DNA of 64,000 nucleotides, taken from Buxus sempervirens (Eukaryota; Streptophyta; Magnoliopsida; Buxales; Buxaceae). Below, in pieces: positions 1 to 60,661 of this stretch. Below the pieces are notes generated by a model. That model saw only the letters and a list, made by a program, of their open reading frames with translations, was not told the DNA's origin and searched no databases. Numbering within the stretch: position 1 is the first letter of the stretch; each line of letters begins with the position of its first letter. A program made the position numbers and the translations under genes. The stretch lies in contig OX387187.1 of NCBI GenBank assembly GCA_947561395.2, forward strand, positions 33,895,829 through 33,959,828. The letters are read 5' to 3'.

Positions 1-919
1 GGGGGAGAAGGGCTGGGAAGCAACCAAAATAATGCCAACCCTTGGAAAGGGGGCTGCTGCCCCCTTTTATAAAAAACTTAATGTATCCGGACTTGAAGTC
101 CGGATACACTATATACCCTGTGTATCCGGACTCCAAGTTCGGATACATTAAGCTTCCTTTGTATCCGGACTTGGAGTCCGGATACAAAACATAATAATTG
201 GCAAAATTGATTTCCGCCGCGAATTTGTCGGAGAATCGGCGCGAATCTTGCCGAGCAAATCTTCGTATCCGGCCTTGGAGTCCGGATATACACAAGGGTA
301 TGTGTATCCGGTATATTTGACCGGATACAAATCGAAAAATTACGGATTTGCCCTTCGACTTGACCGATTCGACCGATTCGACCGATTTGACACTTTTGGA
401 TATCTACGGATTGCCCCCTGCGAATTTTGGTTTAGTCCCTGAGATATTTGATGATTTTAGGATTTTTGAGATTTAGTCCCTGAGATATTTTGCTGCATTG
501 GCTGCCACGTGGGCAGTTCCTACGCCACGTGTGCAGTTTATGGTTTTGCTGCTCGGAAACTTCGACAGCTCATATCTCCTTCATCTGAACTCCGATTTGA
601 GCAAACTCAATTGCGTTGAACTCGTATCGGAGCCCTCTATTTAATGACATAGGGCTAAGCACTTGGCACGGGGTTCGAGGAAAAGTCAACTTTTGGCCTT
701 CCCTCAAGTTTGACCGCCCACAGAACCTTCATCCAGACTCTGATTCCAGCAAACTCAGTTGCGTTGGACTCGTGTCAGGATTCCCTATCCAATGGTATAG
801 GGCAAGGTAGTCAAATTTCACTTGATCAAAAAGTCAACTTCTTGTCCCCTTGGGGTTTGACTTTCTGCCAGGGTTTTTATTTTCAGCACTTCCAAGGGTG
901 CAAAAATAAGGTGCTTACA
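1..919 (-). mobile_element. LTR retrotransposon LTR, reverse orientation, cut by window edge
   Basis: Read on the minus strand the element starts TGTAAGCACC at 919 and runs off the left edge. The start resembles that of the LTR at 25858 (TGTTAGCACC, followed in both by a TTTTTGCACCC motif). It carries a minus-strand TATA-like TATAAAAGGGG at about 60-72. Immediately upstream of this, in LTR orientation, lies an array of five 27-nt palindromes (82-329). No coding sequence is seen; the short ORFs are shadows. Whether this is a solo LTR or the end of a complete element cannot be decided because the other end is outside the window. The expected 5-bp target duplication would be GGTAG (920-924). Confidence 0.75.
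82..329. repeat. 27-nt palindrome array, 39-bp period (5 units)
   Basis: Five palindromes of the form TGTATCCGG-N9-CCGGATACA start at 82, 121, 160, 264 and 303. Within each run the start-to-start distance is exactly 39 bp (27-nt unit plus 12-nt spacer). The first unit (82-108) is perfectly self-complementary over 13-bp arms around one central base. The array lies directly upstream of the minus-strand TATA box of the LTR. Confidence 0.95.
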
Positions 920-1994: not shown

Positions 1995-4900
1995 TCATGA
2001 ATTATTACAAGCAAAACAAGCAAACATTTTGTGAGCAAAGGATTTAGACGATGACCGTCTAACTGGGGGCTCTGGCACAATAGTCTCAGATTCATCCACC
2101 TGCTCCTCCTTAGCATTCTCACATTTTTCTAAATATTTCTTAAAGGCTCCATCACAGTATATAACTGCTTCTGAAACAGTCATGTCCTCCACTAGCTTGT
2201 CCGGGTTGATTCCCTTCTTGTAGTCTCCATTTAACGTGGATGCCAGTTGCACCAACTCTGCTTGAAACTCACTCAGTTTTCTATCCGCCTTTATTTCTTC
2301 CTTTGGCAACTTCTTTGGTTCCGACAAAGCAACTGCAATATAGATCAATACATCTAATCAATGGAGTCCATATATGAAATACATAAAAATATACCTCTGC
2401 AAGTCAATGTCATCAACTCAATAGGCCTAAATATTCGTTGTATGCATAGATTAAACATCTAAGTTGAACTTAAAAGCCCCAGATCCTATACATTCATTAT
2501 AGAAATAAACATGCACAACTAATGCATGCATAATACATGTAAACAACAAACATCATATAAGTACTTACATACATATATATACTGTATATAATGCGAGGCA
2601 CTTCCTTGGGAATCGTGCCAACCAAAATGTGGACTCTTCAAAATAGTCCATACACATCATTGTGAAGATTCATTAATAAAAGGGTATTATAGTCAAAATT
2701 GCCTTAATTTTTTTAGAACTTAATAATGCAAAATGGTTACCTCGCCATCTACCTCTTTCTTCACAGTGCAGTACTGCAGATGCACCCTACTAGTGTGAAT
2801 AAACACACATGCATTTGAATTTGTTTGTGCATACATACATACTAGGCGAGAGGCAAATGTGATGCATGTGGAAAAAAAAATAGCGCAATACCTTTTTATT
2901 TGCTAAATAGTTGTAATATATGTTTGAAACTACTTGATTAGTTTTTAAATACTTATCAAGTTAGATAAATATGGAAAATTAATGGGAGATAAAAATGAAT
3001 AAAAGTAAAGTGAAGGGCCATTTAGGCGGTAGAATTTAAGCCAGAATAACATACGTGTGAGCAACTAATTGAGTGATAAAAATGAATAAAAATAAAAGTG
3101 AGGGCCATTTTGGGTGGCAGAGGTCAGTCGAGAATCTTCGGATTCTCTTTATATAATAGTATTTATGTATATTCTCATGTAGATGTTTGCGCATATAAGT
3201 ATTAAAGGTTTGGAAGCTCACCTGGGCAATCTGTTCTTGGACTTGTTCTAGTTAGGATAGTCTCAAATGTCCCCGCCCATTCATCTCGCTTTGTTAAGAA
3301 GTTCTTCAGATTGAAGATCTTTTTGACTGTTGCTGGAATGGAGGAATGCTCAAATTCTGATGAAGGAAATGGCCCAAAAGGCTTATGCACAACTGTAAAA
3401 TAGCAACACAAAGAGCTTTAACAATGCAGATAGTACTGTGATGATCTATTAGGAAATCAAATTTTGCTGGAGAATGTTATAACTAACCTGTTCCTTTCTC
3501 AATCCATGGAGAAATCATGATGGTTGGTACTCGAACGCCAAGGCGATCAAACTTGAACTTGTAAGGCTCGGGACCTATTAAACCATCTGGACTGGGAACA
3601 TCCAAAACAGGAGTAGGAACATGATCATAAAAGCCACCATGCTCATCATATGTGATTATGAACAAGATTTCATTCCATTGCGGACTGGATCTCAGTGCTT
3701 CATACACTTGCTTTACAAATTTCTGCCCTTCTGCAACATCATGTGGCGGATGATCGTCGTTTCCGGGTACAATTGTATCGAAGTATCGTTGTTCAACCAC
3801 CACATAATTTGGAAGCTTTCCCTCCTTACAATGCCTCTTGAAGTCCAGATCAAATGGATGAAATTTTGTTATGTGTTTTAGCTTTCTAAGGTTCCTACAA
3901 TAGTTGGTACCAAATGTAAGAATTCAGAATGAGCAAACCAATTAGTGTTAGAACCATGAAACCAGATTTAACATGAGTAACTAAAAAAAAATTAGATAAA
4001 CAAAATTATACATATTAAAGAAAAAACATTAAGGAATAGCATAACTGAAAAATTCTAACAAAATTTCAAATGGGAGGTATTAAGTATCTTTTTTTTTTAT
4101 ATCTTTAGAAATTAATTATTACTCTTTTTATTGATAAACTAGAGGTTTAGAATTTTTTCACACTATTTCTAAATTAATTAATAGTGGTTTTTTGCATTGG
4201 GCTTAAATATGTTTACGTTTTAATTTTGTTCTAATACTTTTTTTAACTCAATATTATCCAAGTTTTGTTCACTTTTGCTCTTGTAAAGCACATATATGCA
4301 AGTATCATTACATTAAATGCTAACATTAAAAATAGCCTCTAGTAAAATTTGATCAGGACATTACCATATTTCAGCATTATATATATCTACATAAGATTTA
4401 TTGGATAAACTATACAGAAATCCTTGTCACAACAATGATACAAGTCAAATCCTTTAGTAAAAACTCATAGTGCTATCACTATTTGTTGGCAATTAATTAA
4501 GTTCATAATAATTCCATTACAGTCTAATTATGCTAAAATTTAATATGATGCACACAAATGCGTGGCTATACATCTATACTATTAGTAAAGCAAAGTAAGG
4601 AGAATATTCCTCACATTTTCTGTCCAGCCTATTTCGTTACCATGCATAGTCCTTCAAAATCCCTAAAAAGACTCCACTATTCTAGAGAAAACTACATTCT
4701 ATTTTATCAATAAGTACCCATGTTTATCCCGTAAGGGTTACAACCCAAAAGTCTTACATCAAACTATTGAATACGTGCAATAGTTATTCGTCTAGTTTAT
4801 AAAATATGAACCTAGTCAAGTTTTTGACTATATTTAGAAGCATATATAATTCAAGTTTTAAAGTATATCTTAAGCAAACCTAGCCTAACATTTTGTTTAT

Positions 4901-6086
4901 GATATGCTATATAACGCGTACACGTTCCATTGTTCCAACAGCCTTTCATTTATAGTTAAACCTACCATTCATAAGTTAAGCCTTGCACTTTCTAATCCCC
5001 ATTTTGCTATGTTTTATAAACTTGGCTAACCACCTTATAGTTTTCTTCAATTTTTCAAATAAGAGCCAAAATTAACTAACCTTTCTAGGTTGACTTCTAT
5101 ATGAACCCATCTATCTAATTAACTTTTTATTCCCAAAAAAGACAAGTAAATAAATAAATAATCAATCAAAGAATACTGGTCAACCAATCTTTTCTTGGTC
5201 AACCAACCACATGGGCTCACCATTTTTAAAAAGTCCTGCCTTGTTTTTGGAACAGAAATAAAAAAAAAAATTAACATATCACGTCAAGATTAAAATAATC
5301 TAAATAACAGTTTGTTTTTTTCCTATTACCAAAAAAAATAAAATAAAAATAAATAACAGTTTTTCCCACTTCAAGCTATCAAATCCAAAATCACCAAGTA
5401 ACAGCTGTTAACAGTTCCATCAATTAAACTAAACAAAGAAGAAGAAGTGAAGAATCTTACCTGTAGAACAGCGTAGAAGGAGGGAACTGATAGTAAATTC
5501 CGAAAGAGAAGCCAGCCTCGTCAAGGGACTCGAATATAGTCTTCTGAGGGAACCCTTCAATCAGCTTCAGGGTGTCGTTACTGATCAACCCATGAGACGT
5601 GGCCGAGTGCACAAACGATCTGTTCGGCTGAGTCGACGACGGAACTGACGCAAACCACCGGTCGAACACCGCAAACTCCGACACCAAATCCCTGAAAACC
5701 GGCACAGCATCGGGTTGGAAGCCGTTCATCACCGTCTCCGTCATTCCTTTCTCCATGCTTTGTGCCTGTTGAGCGAAGCCATTCATGGTTGGAACCTGGT
5801 CATTTGGAGCTGAAGAAGCTTCCCATTTGAGACCAAACACCTGCTCGTAGATTGCTTGGAAGGAGTGGCCTGGGTCGAGGTTAACGTACTCGGATTGGTC
5901 GCCGAAGAAGATCCTGTCCGAGTTGGGATCGGTTGTGGATATGGGGTTGGACTCGGTTCCTGTGACGCCATCGATTTCGGGGTTGAGGGTCTTCATCCAT
6001 CCCAGCATGTGATCGAATGAGCGATTCTCTTGGACCAGAACCACTACGGTTTTGATGGGGAAGGGAAGAGCTGGTTGGGGCGCCAT
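1995..6086 (-). CDS. NPC4: Non-specific phospholipase C (NPC3/4/5 type), 4 exons
   Basis: Exons on the minus strand: 6086-5461, 3894-3488, 3392-3222 and 2332-1995. Every junction is GT/AG and phases agree, giving 1542 nt (513 aa), close to the 510-540 aa usual for plant NPCs. The family (phosphoesterase PF04185) hydrolyses phospholipids such as phosphatidylcholine, and in some members sphingolipids, to diacylglycerol-type products. Hallmarks seen: ENRSFDH (residues 20-26), TQPNRS and HSATSHG (152-166), NDDHPPHD (254-261) and DEHGGFYDH (292-300). The N-terminus [12 protein letters not shown] has no signal peptide, unlike NPC1/2/6, so the cytosolic or plasma-membrane NPC3/4/5 subgroup fits best. 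The C-terminus is basic and Ser-rich and ends CFACNNS; its cysteines (507, 510) could be S-acylated, as reported for Arabidopsis NPC4 (known family fact, inferred here). The start ATG at 6086 is followed at once by the conserved domain. Exact orthology among NPC3/4/5 is not resolved. Confidence 0.95.
2560..2794 (+). mobile_element. Helitron-like element, 3' end at 2794 (in NPC intron 3)
   Basis: The 3' terminus shows the palindrome TGCAGTACTGCA (2767-2778) followed 12 nt later by CTAGT (2790-2794). Three other copies of this terminus occur in the window (7140, 51844, 55015, all reversed). The body shares short segments (a TATATACT region, CGAGG, GTGCCAACC) with the copies at 7140 and 51844. 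The 5' end is not exact. The base after CTAGT is G rather than the usual T. Confidence 0.55.
4573..4796 (+). mobile_element. Short complete Helitron-like element in NPC intron 1
   Basis: Starts TCTATACTATTAGTAAAG, a typical Helitron 5' end, and finishes CTAGT, with A before and T after, as expected for insertion between A and T. A short GAATA/TATTC stem lies just upstream of the 3' end. It is 224 bp, has no coding potential and is thus non-autonomous. No target-site duplication is seen, as expected for Helitrons. Confidence 0.65.
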
Positions 6087-6275
6087 CGCTGCTGCTTCAA
6101 TTTCTGCTTGGGTTTGGCTGTTTGGGACGATGGGAAGAGCTTTTAACGGTGGTTTCGTGTGTGTGCAAAAGAGAGAGAGAGAGAGAGGGGAGGCGCAGAC
6201 GTACGAGGAAAGTAAGGGGGAGGAAGAGTCGTCGAAGTTAATGAAGTCTTTGGATCTTGGGTGATATCATAACCA
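6087..6275 (-). promoter_or_regulatory. Probable 5' UTR/proximal promoter of the NPC gene
   Basis: Upstream of the NPC start codon the minus strand is rich in CT, with a pure (CT)n run at about 6171-6189, a common plant 5' UTR/core promoter composition. No clear TATA box was recognised. The transcription start is unknown. Confidence 0.4.
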
Positions 6276-13942: not shown

Positions 13943-14045
13943 TGTAGACACCCCAAATTGCACTACAGGATGAGAAAATAAAAAAATTATTTAATTGGGA
14001 TTTGAAATAGTTCAAAAAAGTGAAAAAAGTAATCAAACCTGTATT

Positions 14046-14150
14046 GCCCGCATTAAGAATGCGGACTTGTGGTGACCGCATTTGATTTGTGGTCATTACG
14101 TGACTGCATTCAAAATGCGGTCAAGGCATGATCGCAATTCAAATGAGGTC
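14046..14150. repeat. 21-nt palindrome array, exact 28-bp period (4 units)
   Basis: Units at 14046-14066, 14074-14094, 14102-14122 and 14130-14150 have the form GACYGCATT...AATGCGGTC. Spacers are 7 nt, one being AAGGCAT. The same geometry and spacer occur in the LTR at 25858, although the palindrome arms there differ. Confidence 0.92.
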
Positions 14151-14354
14151 GCGTGTGTTTTATGCGAATTTGAAATTGCTCGATTTTTGAGCCATATTTA
14201 CCATTCGTGCCTCTCTTTAAGAGATTTGTCTGTCCTTTTTTACCCTTCGTTAGCTCTCATATTTACTCCAACTCAAGTTCTAAAACATAGTTGGAACATT
14301 ATGGAACCTATTTTTGTTCTGCCCTTGGGACCCCCCTTTGCCCTAGCTCTTGCC

Positions 14355-14362
14355 TATAAATA
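14355..14362 (+). promoter_or_regulatory. LTR TATA box
   Basis: TATAAATA in a GCCTATAAATAGAGGGCC context, matching the TATA boxes of the LTRs at 26634 and 58762. The leader that follows is conserved with the 57877 LTR. Confidence 0.75.
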
Positions 14363-14929
14363 GAGGGCCTCTCCTTTAGCAAATGGCTGAAAATTGAAGA
14401 TTGGAAGAGCTCCAAGTGAAGAAGAGAACCCCTGCCTCTTTGCTTTCTCAAGTCCAGGTAAGCCTCTCTCCCCTTTTATTTTCTAGTTTTAATTTCTAGG
14501 ATTATTCTAATCTTCTCCCTTTCTGTAGAATAAAGCCTATGTGTGATTGCAACCCCAAACCTAAATTCAAGTACCTCAAGTATCTTCTTTAGCCGTAAAA
14601 CGTGAAAAGAGTTCTAGGGGAAAGTAGGACAAGAATGGATCCGTAGGGCAAACCCCCATATACTCTAATCTTAGAACTGTGTAGTTTTAATATTTTGTTT
14701 AGATTGTGGGATTGCTTATTGATGAAATATGGAGGAAAACCATGGATCTATGCTGTTCATAGCATTAGATCTCATTTTCCTCCTAGAGTTTTGATTTTTC
14801 ATTGTTTTCTCCCTTTTTATGTTTTTTTTATTATTTTTATCATTAGGCTAGGATTTTGGATCTGCCATGATCTATATGGTAGATATGAAGTCAGAAGCCT
14901 TAAAGTAACCTCTAGGGTTTCATGAGGTG

Positions 14930-15440
14930 ATTTTTGAGTTATTTTTTATTTTTGAGAGAAGACCCTATGGTCTAAACTTTCCCCTTTTGATGTTTTTCAT
15001 CAATATGGGTGAATATGGCTCAGATCTCTTAATTAATGAGAAACCTAGACCAGATCTGTACCCTAGATGGTTTTGATTTATTCTTCAATATTAGGAGATG
15101 ATTTTGGAATTGTTTTGATTTTTTAGAGAAGACCCTATGGTCTAAACTCTCCCATTTTGATGTTTTTCATCAATGTGGGTGAATCTGGTTTAGATCTCTT
15201 AATTAATGAGAAACCTAGACCAGATCTGTACCCTAGATGGTTTTGATTCATTCTTCAACTTCACAAGGTGATTTTTGGTTTATTTTCAATTTTGAAAGAA
15301 GACCCTATGTCTAAACTCTCTCCTTTTGATGTTTTTCATCAACATAGGTGTATTTGGTATTAGATTTTTTAATTAATGAGAAATCTGGGCCAGATCTGTA
15401 CCCTAGATTGTTCAGATTCAATTTTATTTATTATGTAATT
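14930..15440 (+). repeat. Three tandem copies of a 170-bp unit inside the LTR
   Basis: The marker GACCCTATG occurs at 14961, 15131 and 15301, exactly 170 bp apart. Each is followed by TTTGATGTTTTTCATCAA and later GAGAAAYCTRGRCCAGATCTG. The copies are about 85-90% alike by eye. The 57877 LTR of the same family was not seen to have this triplication. Confidence 0.9.
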
Positions 15441-15931
15441 CCTAGATTTCAAGGATTTAACTTAGAGCTAGATTTTTGAAGTTTTTACTTTAGATTTGTT
15501 TTCTTTATCTTGATTTTAATCAATCATGAAGCCCAAAAAATGGAATATTCATAAGAAGGATCCAAAATTAATTGGATCATTCATATGGAAAAAGCCATAC
15601 ATTTTTTATGCTTTTTCTTTACTTTTGATTTGATTTTTATTAGCATGCCTTTTTAAAACATGAACAACACTTTCCAACCACCTTGTGTGGATGAATAAGG
15701 GTGCCTAACACCTTCCCCTATTCATAACCTAATCTCCTTACCCATCTCTGATTTATTTTTTAATTAGAGTTATTTTTACTCTAATTTTATTTTTTTATTA
15801 TTTATTTTATTTGATTATTTCGGTGTCTATTCACACCGTAAAATTGAATGGTGGTGACTCCATGATTTTTATTGAGTCGTGTGATGATTTAAGAAGTCAT
15901 TCAATTGATTTTTCCCATGTCTCACAAAGCC

Positions 15932-19043: not shown

Positions 19044-19280
19044 GGGAAAATTATGGAAAAGGGTTACTTTACACAAATATTTATAAAAACATGCCACTAA
19101 GATCCGAATTTGCATAAACATGCCACTTTTCAAGAATATTTGCTCTGAAGGGTCATTGTACTATTGGGCTTTTGCAAATGGCAAAATTGCCCTTGTTTAA
19201 AAGAGGGGGAAGGAGAGGGAAACACGTGATTTCCCTCTCCTTCTTCTCCAAAATCCCTTTTCTCCTATTTCAACGAAAAT
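19044..19280 (+). repeat. Left terminal inverted repeat of the MULE
   Basis: Inverted copy of 30242-30474 with scattered substitutions. Includes GATCCGAATTTGCATAAACA and CAATAGTACAATGACC (complement) in the shared part. Confidence 0.92.
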
Positions 19281-20241
19281 GAGCCAGTCGCCATTGTCGG
19301 CTCTCCTTCATTTCCATCACCCTCTCCCTCTCTCATTACACCAGCGGAAGGAGAAGGAAGATTCGTTCGTTTCCATTGTGCTAGTTCGTTTCAACCCTCA
19401 CCATCGGAAGGAGAAGAAGGCTCCACAAGGCATCGCTGCCATCCCCTAGGTCGCCACCGTCGTCCAGCTTGCAGTACTATTTGGAGGTATTGTTCCTTCT
19501 CTTCCTTGGCACACAAATAAAACTCATGGCACGGTTGAAATCGGTGTACATGAGTTGCACATGAATGTAATGAGTTATATCACATGCCACTAATGGTATG
19601 AACAAACGGGAAGGGTTTTTGGGACAACAAATATTAGTTGAAAATCTATGGGGTTCCCTTAATGGTATGAATGATTTTTTTTTTCCTGGAAATCGGTAAG
19701 AGTTGTATTTCCATCAAAAAGATATACAAGAGAAATATAAGAATTTACATGTTTAGATTTGTTTTGCTTTGAAGGACGACTCTAGATTGATTAGTGTTCA
19801 TGGAAGATTATGAAGGATGAATTACTATTGATTAGTGTTCATGGAAGATTATGTGCATGGGAACTCATCTATGAAGCTGTCAAATGGTTTACATTGATGA
19901 GTTATGGATGCCTTCTATTGAATGGTCAGTTATCTAGATTGTCAAGAAAACCTATATTTGATGAGATACATTAGAAACTAATTCAATCTATGTTTAAACT
20001 CTTAAAGTGAAATTCCAAGACTTTCTTTCATCCTTAATTCATCCAAAGAAAAAAAAAATTAAAATTTTGATTTTTATCATGTTCCCTTTTTTGTTTTGTT
20101 GGGAAATCCAAGCACTTCAGGTTAATTTAAGTTTGAGATATTAATCTAACTAATTAAGCTATGTGCTTGTTTTTGGTTTAGGTGAAATATGATTAGATAG
20201 CTAATCAACTTGGATATTTTGGAGAGACAAGAGTATACATA

Positions 20242-25857: not shown

Positions 25858-26403
25858 TGTTAGCACCTGATTTTTGCACCCCTAAAATGGAGAAAAATGA
25901 AAATTCAAACCTTGAGGGGGTCAAAAATTGACTTTTTGATTTAAGTAAATTTGGCCATCAAACTTCATCTCATTGAAAAGAGCACTTTGACACGGTTCCA
26001 ACGCAACTGAGTTTGCTGGAATCGGAGTCCAAATGAGAAAGTTATGAACCGGTCAAACTTTTGGGGAGTAAAAAGTTGACCCCAATTCAACTGCCCAAAT
26101 TGATTCCAATGGATAGTGGGTTCCGAGCCGATTCCAACGATATCAAGTTTGCTGAAATCGGACACCGGACGAAGAAGTTATGGGCAATTGAAGTTTCAAG
26201 AAAACTGCTCGTGTGGCAAAAAGCAGAATAAATCAATAAAATAAATAAAATAAAGGTGTTTGTTAATATATTAAATATTTTAATAATATTTTAATTAAAT
26301 AATCTCATTTTATAATAAAATAGTCAAAGAAAATCGGATAAAAATCTTACAAAAAATCAAATTTAATGAAAGGTTTGAAATCCAACATTTTAAAAACGTG
26401 CTC

Positions 26404-26619
26404 GCCCGTATTTGAAGTGCGGGCAGGGCATGCCCGTACTTCAAATATGGGCAAACCTTCTGGAAGGGACACGCATCGCTGTACGGCGAGACACGCGTCC
26501 TGTACGGGCGATTCGCGCGAGATTTGCGCACGAGGGCGGTTCACCCGTATTTGAAATACGGGCAAGGCGTGCCCGTAGTTCAAATACGGGCAAGACATGC
26601 TCGCACTTCAAGTACGGGC
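26404..26619. repeat. 21-nt palindromes, 28-bp period, upstream of the LTR TATA box (5 units)
   Basis: Units GCCCGTATT-N3-AATACGGGC (with variants) at 26404-26424, 26432-26452, 26543-26563, 26571-26591 and 26599-26619. Spacers are 7 nt and close to AAGGCAT (AGGGCAT, AAGGCGT, AAGACAT). The last unit ends 14 bp before the TATA box at 26634. A diverged 90-bp stretch separates units two and three. Confidence 0.95.
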
Positions 26620-26633
26620 ACGACTTTTTTGCC

Positions 26634-26641
26634 TATAAATA
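26634..26641 (+). promoter_or_regulatory. LTR TATA box
   Basis: TATAAATA in GCCTATAAATAGGAGGG, the same context as at 14355 and 58762. Confidence 0.75.
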
Positions 26642-27447
26642 GGAGGGCCAGCCTCCCCATTTTGGGTAAGCTGGTCCCCCCTGTCCATTTCCTTGCTCTT
26701 CCCCCTCTTTATTGACTCCTTCCACATCCACACCCTGACCAAATCCCGTTAACCCAAAAATAATACCCATTTTGCCCTTGAGCCTCTACCTTTCACCCTT
26801 CCATTTCACTCTGTCTAACCGAAAGATGGTGAACCCCTTTTCAAATCAATCTTGGTGAATCCACAGAGACGCGGAAGCGCTACCAAAATTCTAGGAGAAC
26901 CGCTACACATCAAAAGTAGAAGGTAATAGAAAAAGTGTACTTCTCGTAATTTCTTCTTTAACATATATGCAAATTTTCTTGTTTAAACAATTTTTAAGCT
27001 CCTCTTACTTTATTTTGTCATTACTAACTTGTTTGTTTGATTCTTGCATACCATGAGAGACCCCATAAAAATGGATGTCTCTATATGAAAGGGAAGAAAG
27101 TGTATTCATAGAACAAAACAAGCAAATTTGCAAACTAACCTATCCTGGTTACTTGACTTCAAAATGCAAGAGGGATATGTCCTCTTTAAGTTATCCAATG
27201 TAACCTCATCCCATTCCCTCTTTCCTTTCTCATTTCAAACAATCATAAAATGACTTAGTAGAACAAAGAATAGTGGAACTTAGCTCCAAAACATCGGGAA
27301 GCAAAGAAGAAGTTTTGAAGACAAAGGAAGGAAGATATTTGCATAATAAAAAGTATGCTGGAACACCTGCAGAAGTTGCCGAACATCCCAGGAGACCTTC
27401 CGGAGTGATCCCAAGTAAAATCGGCATAAAAAATGCAAATCTGGCGT

Positions 27448-27552
27448 GCCCGTATTTTCTGTACGGTTTGGGCATGCCCGTATTTGCTATACAGGCAAGC
27501 CTGAACCGTATTATACTTACGGGCAAGACCAGCCCGTATAGCAAATACGGGC
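27448..27552. repeat. Second 21-nt palindrome array, 28-bp period (4 units)
   Basis: Units at 27448-27468, 27476-27496, 27504-27524 and 27532-27552, with the same CCCGTAT/ATACGGG arms as the first array in this LTR but a different centre (TTTGCTATA in place of TTTGAAATA). It lies downstream of the TATA box, so it would be transcribed. Confidence 0.92.
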
Positions 27553-28282
27553 AATTTTAAAAATAACTTAAAAATGTAATTTTTCGACCCGGTTGGGCTT
27601 AACCTGACCCGAGCTGGCTTGAACCAACCTTTTAGATGTTTTGGGTTATTTTAAACCCATTTGTGGACCGTGGGCCTAAATGGGCCCACCAAGATACCTT
27701 GGGCCCACTTATGGGGCTCACCTCTGACCGGCCCAAAACCAAGTCTGTTTCTAACGAACGGGCCCAAGGCCACTTGTATAATATTTCATGGGCCCAGACC
27801 AAGCCCGTTGAGCCTTATAACTTTGGTAAATCAAAATAAAACCCAAAAGGGTTACCCAATAACCCTACTGGGCCAAAGCCCAAACCTGGGAACCCATGGG
27901 CCTTCCAACGGGGCCTGCACCCAACCCACCTCACTTAAAATAAAAGATTAAAAATGAAATAAAAGGGCCCATACCTCCAGAGGGCCCCACCAGACCACAA
28001 AATGGCATGCTGGTCTAGGAAAGGTAAAATTGACTTAAAACCAGGGAGACTCGAGGGACCCGTCAAACCAACAGGGCGGGCCGGGGTGTCTTCGGACTTC
28101 CCCGGACGTAACCGAGGACTTAGCTAGATCTCTTATAAGCCGCATACCAGACTTAAACCCGGATAGGCAATCCTGTGTCTGCCTGCACCTCTCAGGTAGT
28201 GGCGACTCCGAAAGTCCCGAGGCACGCACGAACATATGTGCGCCCCGTGTGCGATCTAGGATTTTTAGGTGCGCACACCCAC

Positions 28283-30114: not shown

Positions 30115-30210
30115 GGGTTTCGACTGAGTGACTGGTTCGATGTTCGTTGAGATGAAAGAGGGAGAGGGAGATGGTATGAACATGAAAGAGGGAGAGGGAG
30201 ATGGTATGAG
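30115..30210 (+). repeat. GAAAGAGGGAGAGGGAGATGGT repeats next to the right TIR
   Basis: Two near-identical ~31-bp copies (about 30151 and 30183) plus a related GATGTTCGTTGAGATG segment before them. Confidence 0.75.
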
Positions 30211-30241
30211 CAAAAACGGCAATGGCCTGTGCGACTAGTTC

Positions 30242-30474
30242 GTGTTCGTTGAAATGGGAGAAAATGGTTTTGGAGAAGGAGAGGGAAATCACGTGTTTCC
30301 CTCTCCTTCCCCCTCTTTTAAACAAGAGTAATTTTGCCATTTGCAAAAGCCCAATAGTACAATGACCCTTTAGAGCAAATATTCTTGAAAAGTGGTATGT
30401 TTATGCAAATTCGGATCTTAGTGGCATGTTTTAATAAATATTCGTGTAAAGTGACCATTTTCCATAATTTTTCC
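30242..30474 (-). repeat. Right terminal inverted repeat of the MULE
   Basis: Inverted counterpart of 19044-19280. The start of the match lies near TTCGTTGAAATGGGAG at 30242. Confidence 0.92.
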
Positions 30475-54234: not shown

Positions 54235-54588
54235 AAAATGGGTTTTTAGTGATACTTTTTGGAAAGAATTCTCAATCAGTCGTCTAATTCTTGTAAATTG
54301 ACAATTAGTGATACTTTTTAAAAATAATTAGAAATCAGTGTTATTTTACTATTTATGAAGAATATCTTCCGAAAATGTCCTCAAAAGACTTTGAAAACCA
54401 TTTTACTCATTTTGTTACCATTGAAGTTTACAAGTCTTTTGAGGGCATTTTTGGAAGATATTTTTCATGTACATTAAAATAACACTGATTTCTAATTATT
54501 TTTAAAAAGTATCACTAATTATCAATTTACAAGAATTGAACGACTGAATGAGAATTTTTTCCAAAAAGTATCACTAAAAACCCATTTT
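54235..54588. mobile_element. Foldback MITE with ~165-bp arms
   Basis: Left arm 54235-54400 and right arm about 54420-54588 are nearly perfect inverted repeats, starting AAAATGGGTTTTTAGTGATA and ending TATCACTAAAAACCCATTTT. The loop is only about 20 bp. The tips resemble Mutator-type MITE ends (GGGGCAAAATGG). Transcription would give a long hairpin RNA. Confidence 0.88.
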
Positions 54589-57876: not shown

Positions 57877-58452
57877 TGTAGACACCCCAAAATTGCACGA
57901 TTTTTGATAAATCTTGAAGGAGAGAAATATTTTATTGGAATTTTCAATTCTTTGCATTGGGTTTGAGATACTTAACCCATTTGAATCCAAAACGGAAAAG
58001 GAAAAGGCCCGAATTCAATCTTTTGTGCAAAGTCAAACTTTTTCCGGTTGAATTTTGTTGACTTTTGACCCCAGAAAATGAAATATTTTTTAAAGCCAGA
58101 TTTCAAGATAATTTTTCCCGTTAATCAGGTTTTTAGCCATGTTATTGCATAAAAGAATTTTTTGAGATTTTAAATCTTGACGAATACCTTGGTTTTAACA
58201 TATTGAACCTTTTTTCCAGACCTGAAAAATCGGAATTTTTCCTAGAACTGGAAAGTTGACTTTTTATTCACTTGGAATTTGGGTCTGGAACTATTTTTAA
58301 TGGATTCAAATGGGGGGGGGGGGGTGTTTGTTTATTTACATGTAATATCTTAAGTAAATGGAGATTAAAAAATACGAGGACATTTACTTAAACGATATTA
58401 CATATAAATAAGTATTGCCTGTGTTAAAATTCGGATAAAAGCTTCTTTTTTT

Positions 58453-58596
58453 TGTATCCGACAGATAATGCCGGATACAAGAAGACCTTAATGTATCCGG
58501 CAACATATGCCGGATACAAGCAGACTTTAGTGTATCTGGAATTATATGCCGGATACATTAAGGCACTTGTGTATCCGGCCTGATATGCCGGATGCA
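58453..58596. repeat. 27-nt palindrome array, exact 39-bp period (4 units)
   Basis: Units TGTATCCGG...CCGGATACA at 58453-58479, 58492-58518, 58531-58557 and 58570-58596. The 12-nt spacers (ending or starting TTAAG/CTTAA) resemble, inverted, those of the array at 82-329. It lies 166 bp upstream of the TATA box. Confidence 0.95.
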
Positions 58597-58761
58597 TAAG
58601 TTTTGCTCAAAATTAGGGTTTTCCGAGAGATTTCACTTTTTACCATCATGTCCTTCATTAAATGAGGGGAAATCTCGGAAATGGCCTTAGGGTTAAGGTT
58701 GGTGGGCTCTAGACATTATTTTGTGTCTACCATCACACCAACCCTAACCCTAGCCTTTGCC

Positions 58762-58769
58762 TATAAATA
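58762..58769 (+). promoter_or_regulatory. LTR TATA box
   Basis: TATAAATA in GCCTATAAATAGGAGG, matching 14355 and 26634. Confidence 0.75.
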
Positions 58770-60661
58770 GGAGGCTCCTCCTTAAGCAAATGGCCAAGAA
58801 GTTGGAGATCCAAGAGTTCCGAGTGAAGAAGGGAACTACTGCCGGATTGCTTCCAGAACCCCAGGTAAGCCTCAACCTCTTCTTTATTTTATGTCTTCAC
58901 ATTTCTAGATCTAGATCTCTTCTTCTACCTTTCTGTAGAATAAGGCCTTCTATGTGTGTGAAAACCCTTCCTCGGCTCAAAGTATCTCAAGACTCCCCCT
59001 AGGAGAAACGAGACTGGGGATTGATCCTAGTGCTAGAACCTATCTTGCATAAGCCTTTTGAATGATTGAAAACCGTTTCATATTCAAAGTACCCCAAGAT
59101 TATCTTGAAGAACCGTGTTTAACGGGGAGAGAGAACTAAGGGAAACGATAATGGAACGGAACCCTAGGTTGTTTTAGAACCTTATTTTGATGAAGATGAA
59201 TGCATGCTATGTTGATATATTGTTCTTGTATGATTTTTCACACTTGCACATACAGAGCACGATTTTGGCGGGATAGGCTCACATTCCGGGTTTATTGCAT
59301 TTATTGTGATAAATCTGAAATAAATGGCCTCAATCAATTCTGGAATGTCTTTGAATGATTTTTAAAGGATTTGTGTTCATCTTGCACGAATTCCACACAC
59401 TTTATCACAGTTTTGAATATTTTTTCTCCAAAAAAGGCTTTACTTGACAGCAACTATACCCTGACTTCGGACACTCATAACTTCATCATCCGGATGAATT
59501 TTGGAGTGATTCCAGAACCATGGGAAAGGTGAGGCTGTCTAGTTTATGCCAACTAAATTTCATTAATTTCTATCTAGTGGAGTTTTGACACCTCTCTGTC
59601 GAAGTTGATTGGACAGTTCAGGTTTAAATACGGAACTTGTCACTTCGACGGAGCGCCATGTGTTTGTTTTAAGTCCGATTCAAGTGATTTTTGTTTCTGG
59701 GCACTCCTTTATGAGTCTATTTTGAAATTCAGTTGGTTTTATAATTGTTTGACTCCATTTGCATTATTGGTAACAGATTTACTCAGAACTGCTCATCAGT
59801 ACTTTTCTGGGTAAATCTATGATCTTCGGGGCCTGTTCGGGAGACCACCCAAGGAACATCCGAATGAATTTTTGTATGAGGCTAGTTTCGTTCGAAAGAT
59901 GGTCATAGACTTCAATCACACCAAATTTCGTGGATTTTTATGGAGTGGATTTTTCTAGGTGATTTTCCAAACTTGCATGCTTATCACTTTTGATTTTCCC
60001 CAGCAGCAACTTTAAAGGAGCATAACTCCTAGGATTTCAACCAGATTTACTTGAAATTTTGCATGAGTCTCTTATTTACCATGATCTTTCACATGGATTT
60101 GGTATGATTCAATTTAAAATTGATTTTGAATGATTTCAAGACAAAAGGCATTGCTTTTTACCAAATTTCCCGGATTTGCCTCAACTTGGTTTTGTGCAAC
60201 TTTTGCTTTGACTTCCATCTTTTTGTGATATTCCAGAAGTGTTATTGACATAAAAGAGGATCTAGAATCCATTTGGATTCCTCAAGTAAAAATATCACAC
60301 ATTGGTTTAATTCTTTTCCAATGTTTTTAATGATTTTTAGCAAGCTTTCTTATCCTTTTTGCATGAACAAACACTTGGCAACCACCTTGTGTGGATGAAT
60401 GGGGGTGCTTAATACCTTCCCCCATTCATAATCTAATCCCCTTACCCATCTTTGGATTTGATTTTCAAGTAGGGTTATTTTTACCCTAGAATTTGCTTTT
60501 TAACCCTTTTTGCATATTTTTGAACATTTTGGTGTCCATTCACACCCCAAAATTCTGAATGGTGGCGACTCTCCCAATTTCGCGTTGAGCCCGTGTGTTG
60601 ACGGAGGGGGAATCATCTCCGGTGATTTTTCCCGTGTCTCACAGTTCTTGACATCTGAACG

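Follow-up and report, generated by a model that had tools for sequence, protein, structure and literature searches.

The U3 regions of a group of Ty3-type LTR retrotransposons of Buxus sempervirens carry arrays of short palindromic units that are regularly spaced, abundant and built on a recurrent CCG...CGG framework. The letters at positions 1 and 2 and partly at position 6 of the half-sites are specific to the type of array and common to the units of an LTR. In one type of array (AA, see below) the half-site letters are also common to a separate cluster located downstream. We suggest that the arrays are operators for a symmetric, probably dimeric DNA-binding protein that has different specificities in different LTR lineages; we consider the chances of this reading to be evenly balanced.

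According to this reading, U3 inverted half-sites NNCCGNA...TNCGGNN, forming a 21-bp unit repeated every 28 bp, would make up a cis-acting platform, and a longer form of the platform would repeat every 39 bp. The array would be bound as double-stranded DNA by the sequence-specific protein, i.e., the reader. Judging from the position of the arrays near the TATA box, the binding may drive or protect transcription, in the manner of an enhancer or an anti-silencing element.

The window, i.e., the whole 64-kb stretch of DNA that was analyzed (G000:C9:33895829-33959828; 36% G+C), contains five arrays in four LTRs, which we designate A, B, C, and D. LTRs B, C, and D have the TG...CA ends and target-site duplications of LTRs of LTR retrotransposons and are 1,984-2,767 bp long. 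The following features belong to LTR B and its array.

13943..15926, plus strand: LTR B, a solo LTR with TG...CA ends and the target-site duplication AAGCC on both flanks
14046..14066, plus strand: unit 1 of array B, mirrored at 8 of 9 arm positions
14074..14094, plus strand: unit 2 of array B, mirrored at 6 of 9 arm positions
14102..14122, plus strand: unit 3 of array B, mirrored at 8 of 9 arm positions
14130..14150, plus strand: unit 4 of array B, mirrored at 6 of 9 arm positions
14355..14361, plus strand: TATA box of LTR B (TATAAA at 14355), 205 bp from the array end

An initial annotation of the window described this array as four 21-nt palindromes with GACCGCATT/AATGCGGTC arms that follow each other at exactly 28-bp steps, 205 bp upstream of the TATA box. 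The steps are exact and the distance is correct if counted from the array end to TATAAA. The palindromes themselves are imperfect: of the nine positions in each arm, 8, 6, 8, and 6 match in the four units. The arms given are therefore a summary and not a literal reading of each unit; unit 1 starts with GCCC. The spacer AAGGCAT is found in its exact form in only one of the three spacers of array B, and AAGGCAT-like spacers recur in LTR C.

The other LTRs and arrays of the window are located as follows.

25858..28277, plus strand: LTR C, a solo LTR with TG...CA ends and the target-site duplication CCCAC
26404..26452, plus strand: first U3 cluster of array C, two GCCCGTA-type units with a 28-bp step
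26543..26619, plus strand: second U3 cluster of array C, three units with a 28-bp step, directly before the TATA box
27448..27552, plus strand: leader cluster of LTR C, made up of four GCCCGTA-like units that follow each other every 28 bp and lie about 0.8 kb beyond the TATA box
1..919, minus strand: LTR A, which starts at 919 and runs off the left edge of the window; its backbone is related to that of LTR C
82..186, minus strand: three 27-bp TGTATCCGG...CCGGATACA units of array A with a 39-bp step, adjoining the TATA box
264..329, minus strand: two more units of array A, with a CG-rich insert between these and the other three
57877..60643, plus strand: LTR D, a solo LTR with the target-site duplication GTTCT; its backbone is related to that of LTR B
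58453..58596, plus strand: array D, consisting of four 27-bp units of the TGTATCCGG type with a 39-bp step

LTR C has the 21+7 geometry of LTR B with GCCCGTATT-type arms, as the initial annotation stated. The 28-bp cluster at 27448-27552, which is presumably transcribed, and the arrays at 82-329 on the minus strand and at 58453-58596 are additional to it. LTR A has the layout of LTR C, with 2+3 units around a CG-rich insert. The unit centres of array D depart from the framework. If one mismatch is allowed, there are six GACCGCATT half-sites in LTR B, 12 GCCCGTATT half-sites in LTR C, and ten and eight TGTATCCGG half-sites in LTRs A and D, respectively; the half-site of another array type (A and D being regarded as one type) occurs 0-1 times in any LTR of the window.

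Several other features of the window are recorded here for completeness. A hairpin around GGGTGCYTAAYACCTTCCCC is present late in LTRs B (15691-15725) and D (60395-60429), and the stem differences between the two copies are mirrored. The segment 63559-63886 on the minus strand is 70% like positions 27897-28209 of LTR C and is probably the end of a further LTR that leaves the window. A MITE-like inverted repeat of 162 nt with a 30-nt loop and 91% complementarity is located at 54235-54588. The segments 19044-19336 and 30182-30474 form an inverted pair (88% identity over 299 bp, 96% over 201) and are probably two copies of one repeat. A phosphoesterase (PF04185) gene lies in two open pieces at 3483-6266 on the minus strand.

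Most units fit the framework NN-CCG-N-A-Y-TT-S-AA-R-T-N-CGG-NN, and units of the GA type (see below) and of the leaders often have centres unlike it. A scan of the window for matches at 10 of the 12 fixed positions found 16 array units and two other sites, compared with 0-5 sites in 20 mononucleotide shuffles and one site in the reversed window; at this threshold all four D units (58453-58596) and two others are missed. In the 676.5-Mb genome the framework core CCGNAYTTSAARTNCGG occurs 7,256 times vs. two occurrences of the reversed pattern, and the exact palindrome GACCGCATT-N3-AATGCGGTC occurs 155 times vs. none. A search of viral contigs with two patterns gave no matches.

Twenty arrays were picked by the framework irrespective of positions 1, 2, and 6 or of the backbone. 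The main type is GC in 16 of them, AA in two, GA in one, and AT in one, and 136 of 162 half-sites belong to the main type of their own array. Over 77 arrays (600 half-sites), the between-array differentiation is high at positions 1 (0.59), 2 (0.57), and 6 (0.64), 0.15 at position 8, and at most 0.06 at the remaining positions; these values include shared ancestry, and the low ones at the positions used for detection are partly forced. Helical phasing of the units was considered and dropped: the 28- and 39-bp steps differ by 11 bp, and other spacings show no clustering around the phase of the 28-bp step (R 0.52 and mean offset -2.4 for 24 spacings at period 10.5).

The relation between array types was studied in LTRs of the C family. 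The sample includes 39 LTRs that match LTR C over its first 300 bp and were chosen blind to arrays (the best 40 of 5,477 candidates, without the LTR of the window itself); 541-base U3 stretches were used. The usual layout starts with two units, followed by a CG-rich insert, about three further units, and the TATA box, with some LTRs cut or rearranged. By the letters at positions 1-2 we distinguish GCCCG (30 LTRs), AACCG (5), and GACCG (4) arrays, hereafter the GC, AA, and GA types. The letters of the own LTR are present in 228 of 254 U3 half-sites of the GC type, in all 40 of the AA type, and in 14 of 18 of the GA type, LTRs L066 and L091 being left out of these counts. Position 6 is mainly T in the GC and GA types and C in the AA type (25 of 40 half-sites).

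A tree of the C family was inferred from the U3 with units removed for 37 of the 39 LTRs; L066 has two weak units and no regular array, L091 has a second LTR nested inside, and both were omitted. AA-type LTRs form one clade (100/100), and GA-type LTRs form one clade (99/93) beside the GC group. A tree that holds GC together, on one side of a branch, is not rejected by the AU test (p 0.09). The three array states need at least two changes on any tree. The contrast between types represents about two changes, and therefore the half-site counts are not independent.

The leader clusters, about 0.8-0.9 kb from the U3 arrays, were compared in 20 LTR stretches, with L091 dropped and L086 having no units. 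The leader half-sites are AA in 25 of 26 cases in AA-type LTRs vs. five of 62 in GC-type LTRs (Fisher p 6e-16, for sequences that are not independent). In the leaders of GC-type LTRs, GC is found in 34 of 62 half-sites, and the leaders of GA-type LTRs are mixed (six GA and eight AA among 14 half-sites). Leader units are not copies of U3 units, because their inner letters differ.

The initial annotation named three possible origins of the pattern: a selected hairpin, a dimeric protein site that has switched specificity, and a homogenised array. Under the last of these the array has no function, and its units are copied by unequal exchange, slippage, or template switching during reverse transcription, with hairpin-templated repair keeping the arms alike. 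Such copying would account for the resemblance of units within an LTR and for the variable number of units (up to six in U3) with spacings of 56 as well as 28. If whole units were copied, their inner sequence would be copied with them, so homogenisation alone fits the AA type poorly: the centres specific to slots 1 and 2 are retained there while the outer letters differ, and the leader has the half-site letters of the U3 with other inner sequence. In slot 2 the inner CCGCACTTCAAATACGG is identical in L071, where the flanks are GC, and in L090, where they are AA/TT, which we take as a case of in-place change of the outer letters. The AA-type spacers differ from the GC-type spacers, which leaves room for unit replacement. 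The GA type agrees better with homogenisation, as the inner letters of its slots 1 and 2 are unlike those of the sister GC group and have changed along with the outer ones; therefore, unit replacement is possible there. Simple change in place is a poorer description of the GA type and of array D. The recurrence of the framework in LTRs with otherwise unalike backbones also speaks against homogenisation. On the whole, we regard a functionless homogenised array as unlikely.

The hairpin alternative supposes that RNA or single-stranded DNA hairpins are formed by each unit or between neighbours and that selection keeps the base pairing. The folds of six array stretches on the LTR strand are very stable (z between -6.3 and -15.3). 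In LTR C, slots 1 and 2 form an ungapped pairing of 22 bp, and units 2 and 4 of the B family pair better mutually than each with itself. However, strong folding carries little weight, because any palindrome array folds well.

In the C family, the arms agree at positions 1 and 2 with frequencies of 0.896 and 0.903, compared with 0.697 and 0.634 in a global shuffle and with 0.902 and 0.903 if the right arms are permuted inside each LTR. The respective values for position 6 are 0.688, 0.651, and 0.713. Thus the agreement of arms is the same as in the within-LTR shuffle.

For the B family, 30 loci were taken from the best 40 of 4,751 candidates; framework units were recovered from the array stretch of 25 of them, and 15 have four regular slots. 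One of these, L011, has a GCCCGTA array and was left out, which resulted in 14 aligned LTRs including the window's own LTR B. L011 (G000:C4:47077150-47077443 and upstream) has a B-type promoter region behind its GCCCGTA-type array and is possibly a chimeric LTR or a nested insertion. The B family mixes GA and GT halves. At position 2 its arms agree at a level of 0.529 vs. 0.493 in the global shuffle (p 0.26), and this position is unpaired in seven or eight of the 14 LTRs in all four units. The test of arm covariation that had been proposed along with the initial annotation gave a result no better than shuffles within units of these 14 LTRs: one base pair of the local hairpins is changed on both sides vs. 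1.9 shuffled, with a covariation score of 0.083 vs. 0.087. Non-mirrored arm changes, which had been named in advance as evidence against the proposed pattern, are thereby found in part in the B family.

Pairing in the C family was compared in 31 LTRs (in addition to L066 and L091, five loci without an anchor and one without the slot pair were excluded). Within the GC type there is no significant excess of local or slot 1:2 pairing over shuffles. Across types all pairings exceed shuffles, because of the type change itself. G.T mispairs of the sense strand are not in excess over A.C mispairs in either the C family (56 vs. 90) or the B family (19 vs. 23). A small excess was observed for the helix between units 2 and 4 of the B family, with eight double-changed cells vs. 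5.2 shuffled and a covariation score of 0.112 vs. 0.096 (12 of 500 shuffles as high), but one column pair in one subfamily provides six of seven double-changed cells.

Three variants of the hairpin were set aside on these grounds: local hairpins as the main account, with no within-unit covariation beyond shuffles; the stem between units 2 and 4 of the B family, with covariation that is mostly one subfamily change; and the stem between slots 1 and 2 of the C family, which folds well with no significant covariation within the GC type. A selected hairpin appears to us quite improbable. Since the agreement of arms equals the within-LTR shuffle and the B family has no within-unit covariation and an arm position that is unpaired in half of its LTRs, it is the half-site, and not the stem, that is common to the units of an LTR. 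The statement that arms covary between LTRs is correct for the comparison of array types, but there is no base-by-base compensation beneath it.

The mirroring of substitutions in the two arms is also less strict than described. Mixed GA...GC units are found 459 times (248+211) vs. 147 GA...GA units; most of those listed among the 459 have one sequence, which suggests one widespread slot. Of the 81 units in the 20 arrays picked by the framework, 22 are mixed. Mixed units are common, and therefore mirroring is a tendency of arrays rather than a rule for each unit.

We prefer a protein site because half-sites share lineage letters across slots, arms, and AA-type clusters without base-by-base compensation. 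Among the three origins named initially, the dimeric site with switched specificity is the best supported, owing to the AA-type U3 and its distant cluster, with the reader itself postulated.

The protein could also be an ordinary one. The arrays could be enhancer boxes that serve transcription factors already present in the host and that are swapped between LTR families by recombination, which needs no co-evolving reader. This alternative overlaps with the operator reading, which is not tied to a particular kind of reader. It agrees with the location of the arrays upstream of the TATA box and with the distribution of arrays among backbones. In the window the backbones match in the pairs A with C and B with D, and the main matches of A with D and B with C are the arrays, apart from a few short weak matches outside them. 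From the first-listed of the 155 exact GACCGCATT palindromes we drew 24 loci; the backbone is of the A/C type at 17 of them, of the B/D type at four, and of neither type at three. To judge by these matches, the kind of array crosses the LTR backbone, which counts in favor of the operator reading as well. On the other hand, the change of outer letters in the AA type occurs on one backbone with the slot order retained and looks like substitution rather than exchange, and we identified no host factor for the arrays. We therefore treat host-factor boxes as possible, though somewhat doubtful.

The Tnt1 superfamily belongs to the Ty1/copia group. In Solanaceae, its U3 varies between subfamilies and the rest of the element is more alike; the accessible part of the paper interprets this as modular evolution (PMC1838419) and contains no word starting with "palindrom" or "tandem". 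Such modular U3 evolution is a further point in favor of host-factor boxes, and the LTR arrays resemble the Tnt1 modules in the modular change of U3. Unlike these modules, as far as the accessible text describes them, units and both arms differ in step within one layout here.

LTRs B, C, and D of the window are solo LTRs, and gag was read in the single LTR-paired copy examined. A 332-aa open frame of this copy (L114) is a PF03732-type gag (E 2.5e-12), as is characteristic of Ty3/gypsy elements. No pol domain was recognised in 19 ORF pieces of the copy, and a search with the gag protein found no relative at E 0.001. The LTR is followed by a primer-site-like TTGGCGACTC; a tentative assignment to the Tat/Ogre lineage would be based on this site.

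The internal region has tandem repeats of its own. Near the 3' LTR of one LTR-paired copy (L115:1494-2910) there are 104- and 164-bp tandem repeats that hold the palindromes CCATGT...ACATGG and CAATGT...ACATTG, the differences being mirrored here too. A second tandem array, with about 17 copies of a 47-bp unit, follows at L115:3032-3826.

Transposase_28 (PF04195) gave no match in the genome among 20 candidates scored, and no control genome gave a match either. The plant mobile domain (PF10536) was tested as the reader because Ogre elements often encode one, according to the part of the source that was accessible (PMC6317226). All 117 candidates scored, out of 8,447, were matches. An LTR start at the predicted place beside these genes was found in none of 12 stretches. 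LTR pieces are located elsewhere or inverted in three of the 12 (L139, L140, and L146), and the single LTR-neighbouring case, L136, lacks a purine tract in front of the LTR. The plant mobile domain was thus rejected as the element-encoded reader, since its genes are not constantly associated with these LTRs (0 of 12). The PF10536 genes themselves (G000:C8:40850704-40855195 and many other places) often have open frames of 575 or 590 aa with near-equal scores and are often paired about 3.4 kb apart; these multicopy genes are perhaps a separate mobile element.

A mobile element that encodes the binder of its own repeats is known from Arabidopsis, where this anti-silencing protein removes methylation. 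VANDAL elements are Mu-like DNA transposons that encode the binder VANC, and the VANC21 motif YAGTATTAY is arrayed in them in one orientation (PMC5735166); the accessible text of this paper contains no word starting with "palindrom" or "dimer". As described there, VANC targets are similar to the LTR arrays in that dense short motifs occupy non-coding parts of the element, motifs differ between related families, and the units of one element diverge together. The LTR arrays are likewise tandem, family-specific short motifs in non-coding DNA. They differ from VANC targets in being inverted pairs in LTRs, and not motifs of single orientation in Mu-like DNA transposons. VANDAL elements encode their binder, whereas none was found in the LTR elements by the searches for PF04195 and PF10536.

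Retand (Tat) elements have family-specific tandem arrays, antisense ORFs, and a putative element-encoded DNA-binding protein, TRP28, according to the accessible part of the source (PMC11963269). Both they and the elements studied here are Ty3-type plant elements with family-specific tandem arrays. As reported there, the Retand arrays are internal to the element, for the most part in the segment from pol to the 3' LTR, and Retand LTRs are 315-1,194 bp long (PMC11963269); the arrays considered here are in U3, in LTRs of the greater lengths given above for B, C, and D.

The initial annotation supposed that such arrays in plant LTRs had no prior description, and we found none in a search limited to titles and abstract openings, with subscription journals thinly covered. 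What appears to be new here is the palindromic, lineage-coded arrays of LTRs; regulatory tandem arrays of mobile elements as such are already known.

The operator reading can be extended, at a tentative level and with rather low confidence, to a lock-and-key relation. In this case the letters at positions 1, 2, and 6 would form a lineage half-site code matched by a dimeric reader that activates or unsilences only its own LTRs, and the code and the reader would switch together. The reader would be either element-encoded or a member of a diversifying host family.

If the operator reading is true, plant LTR retrotransposons carry codes of regulatory specificity that are a retroelement counterpart of VANC targets. 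The thousands of sites in one genome would represent a natural mutagenesis set, and the 21-bp unit, available in several types, would be a direct bait for the reader. The way in which LTR lineages within one genome keep their transcriptional control separate would then become testable.
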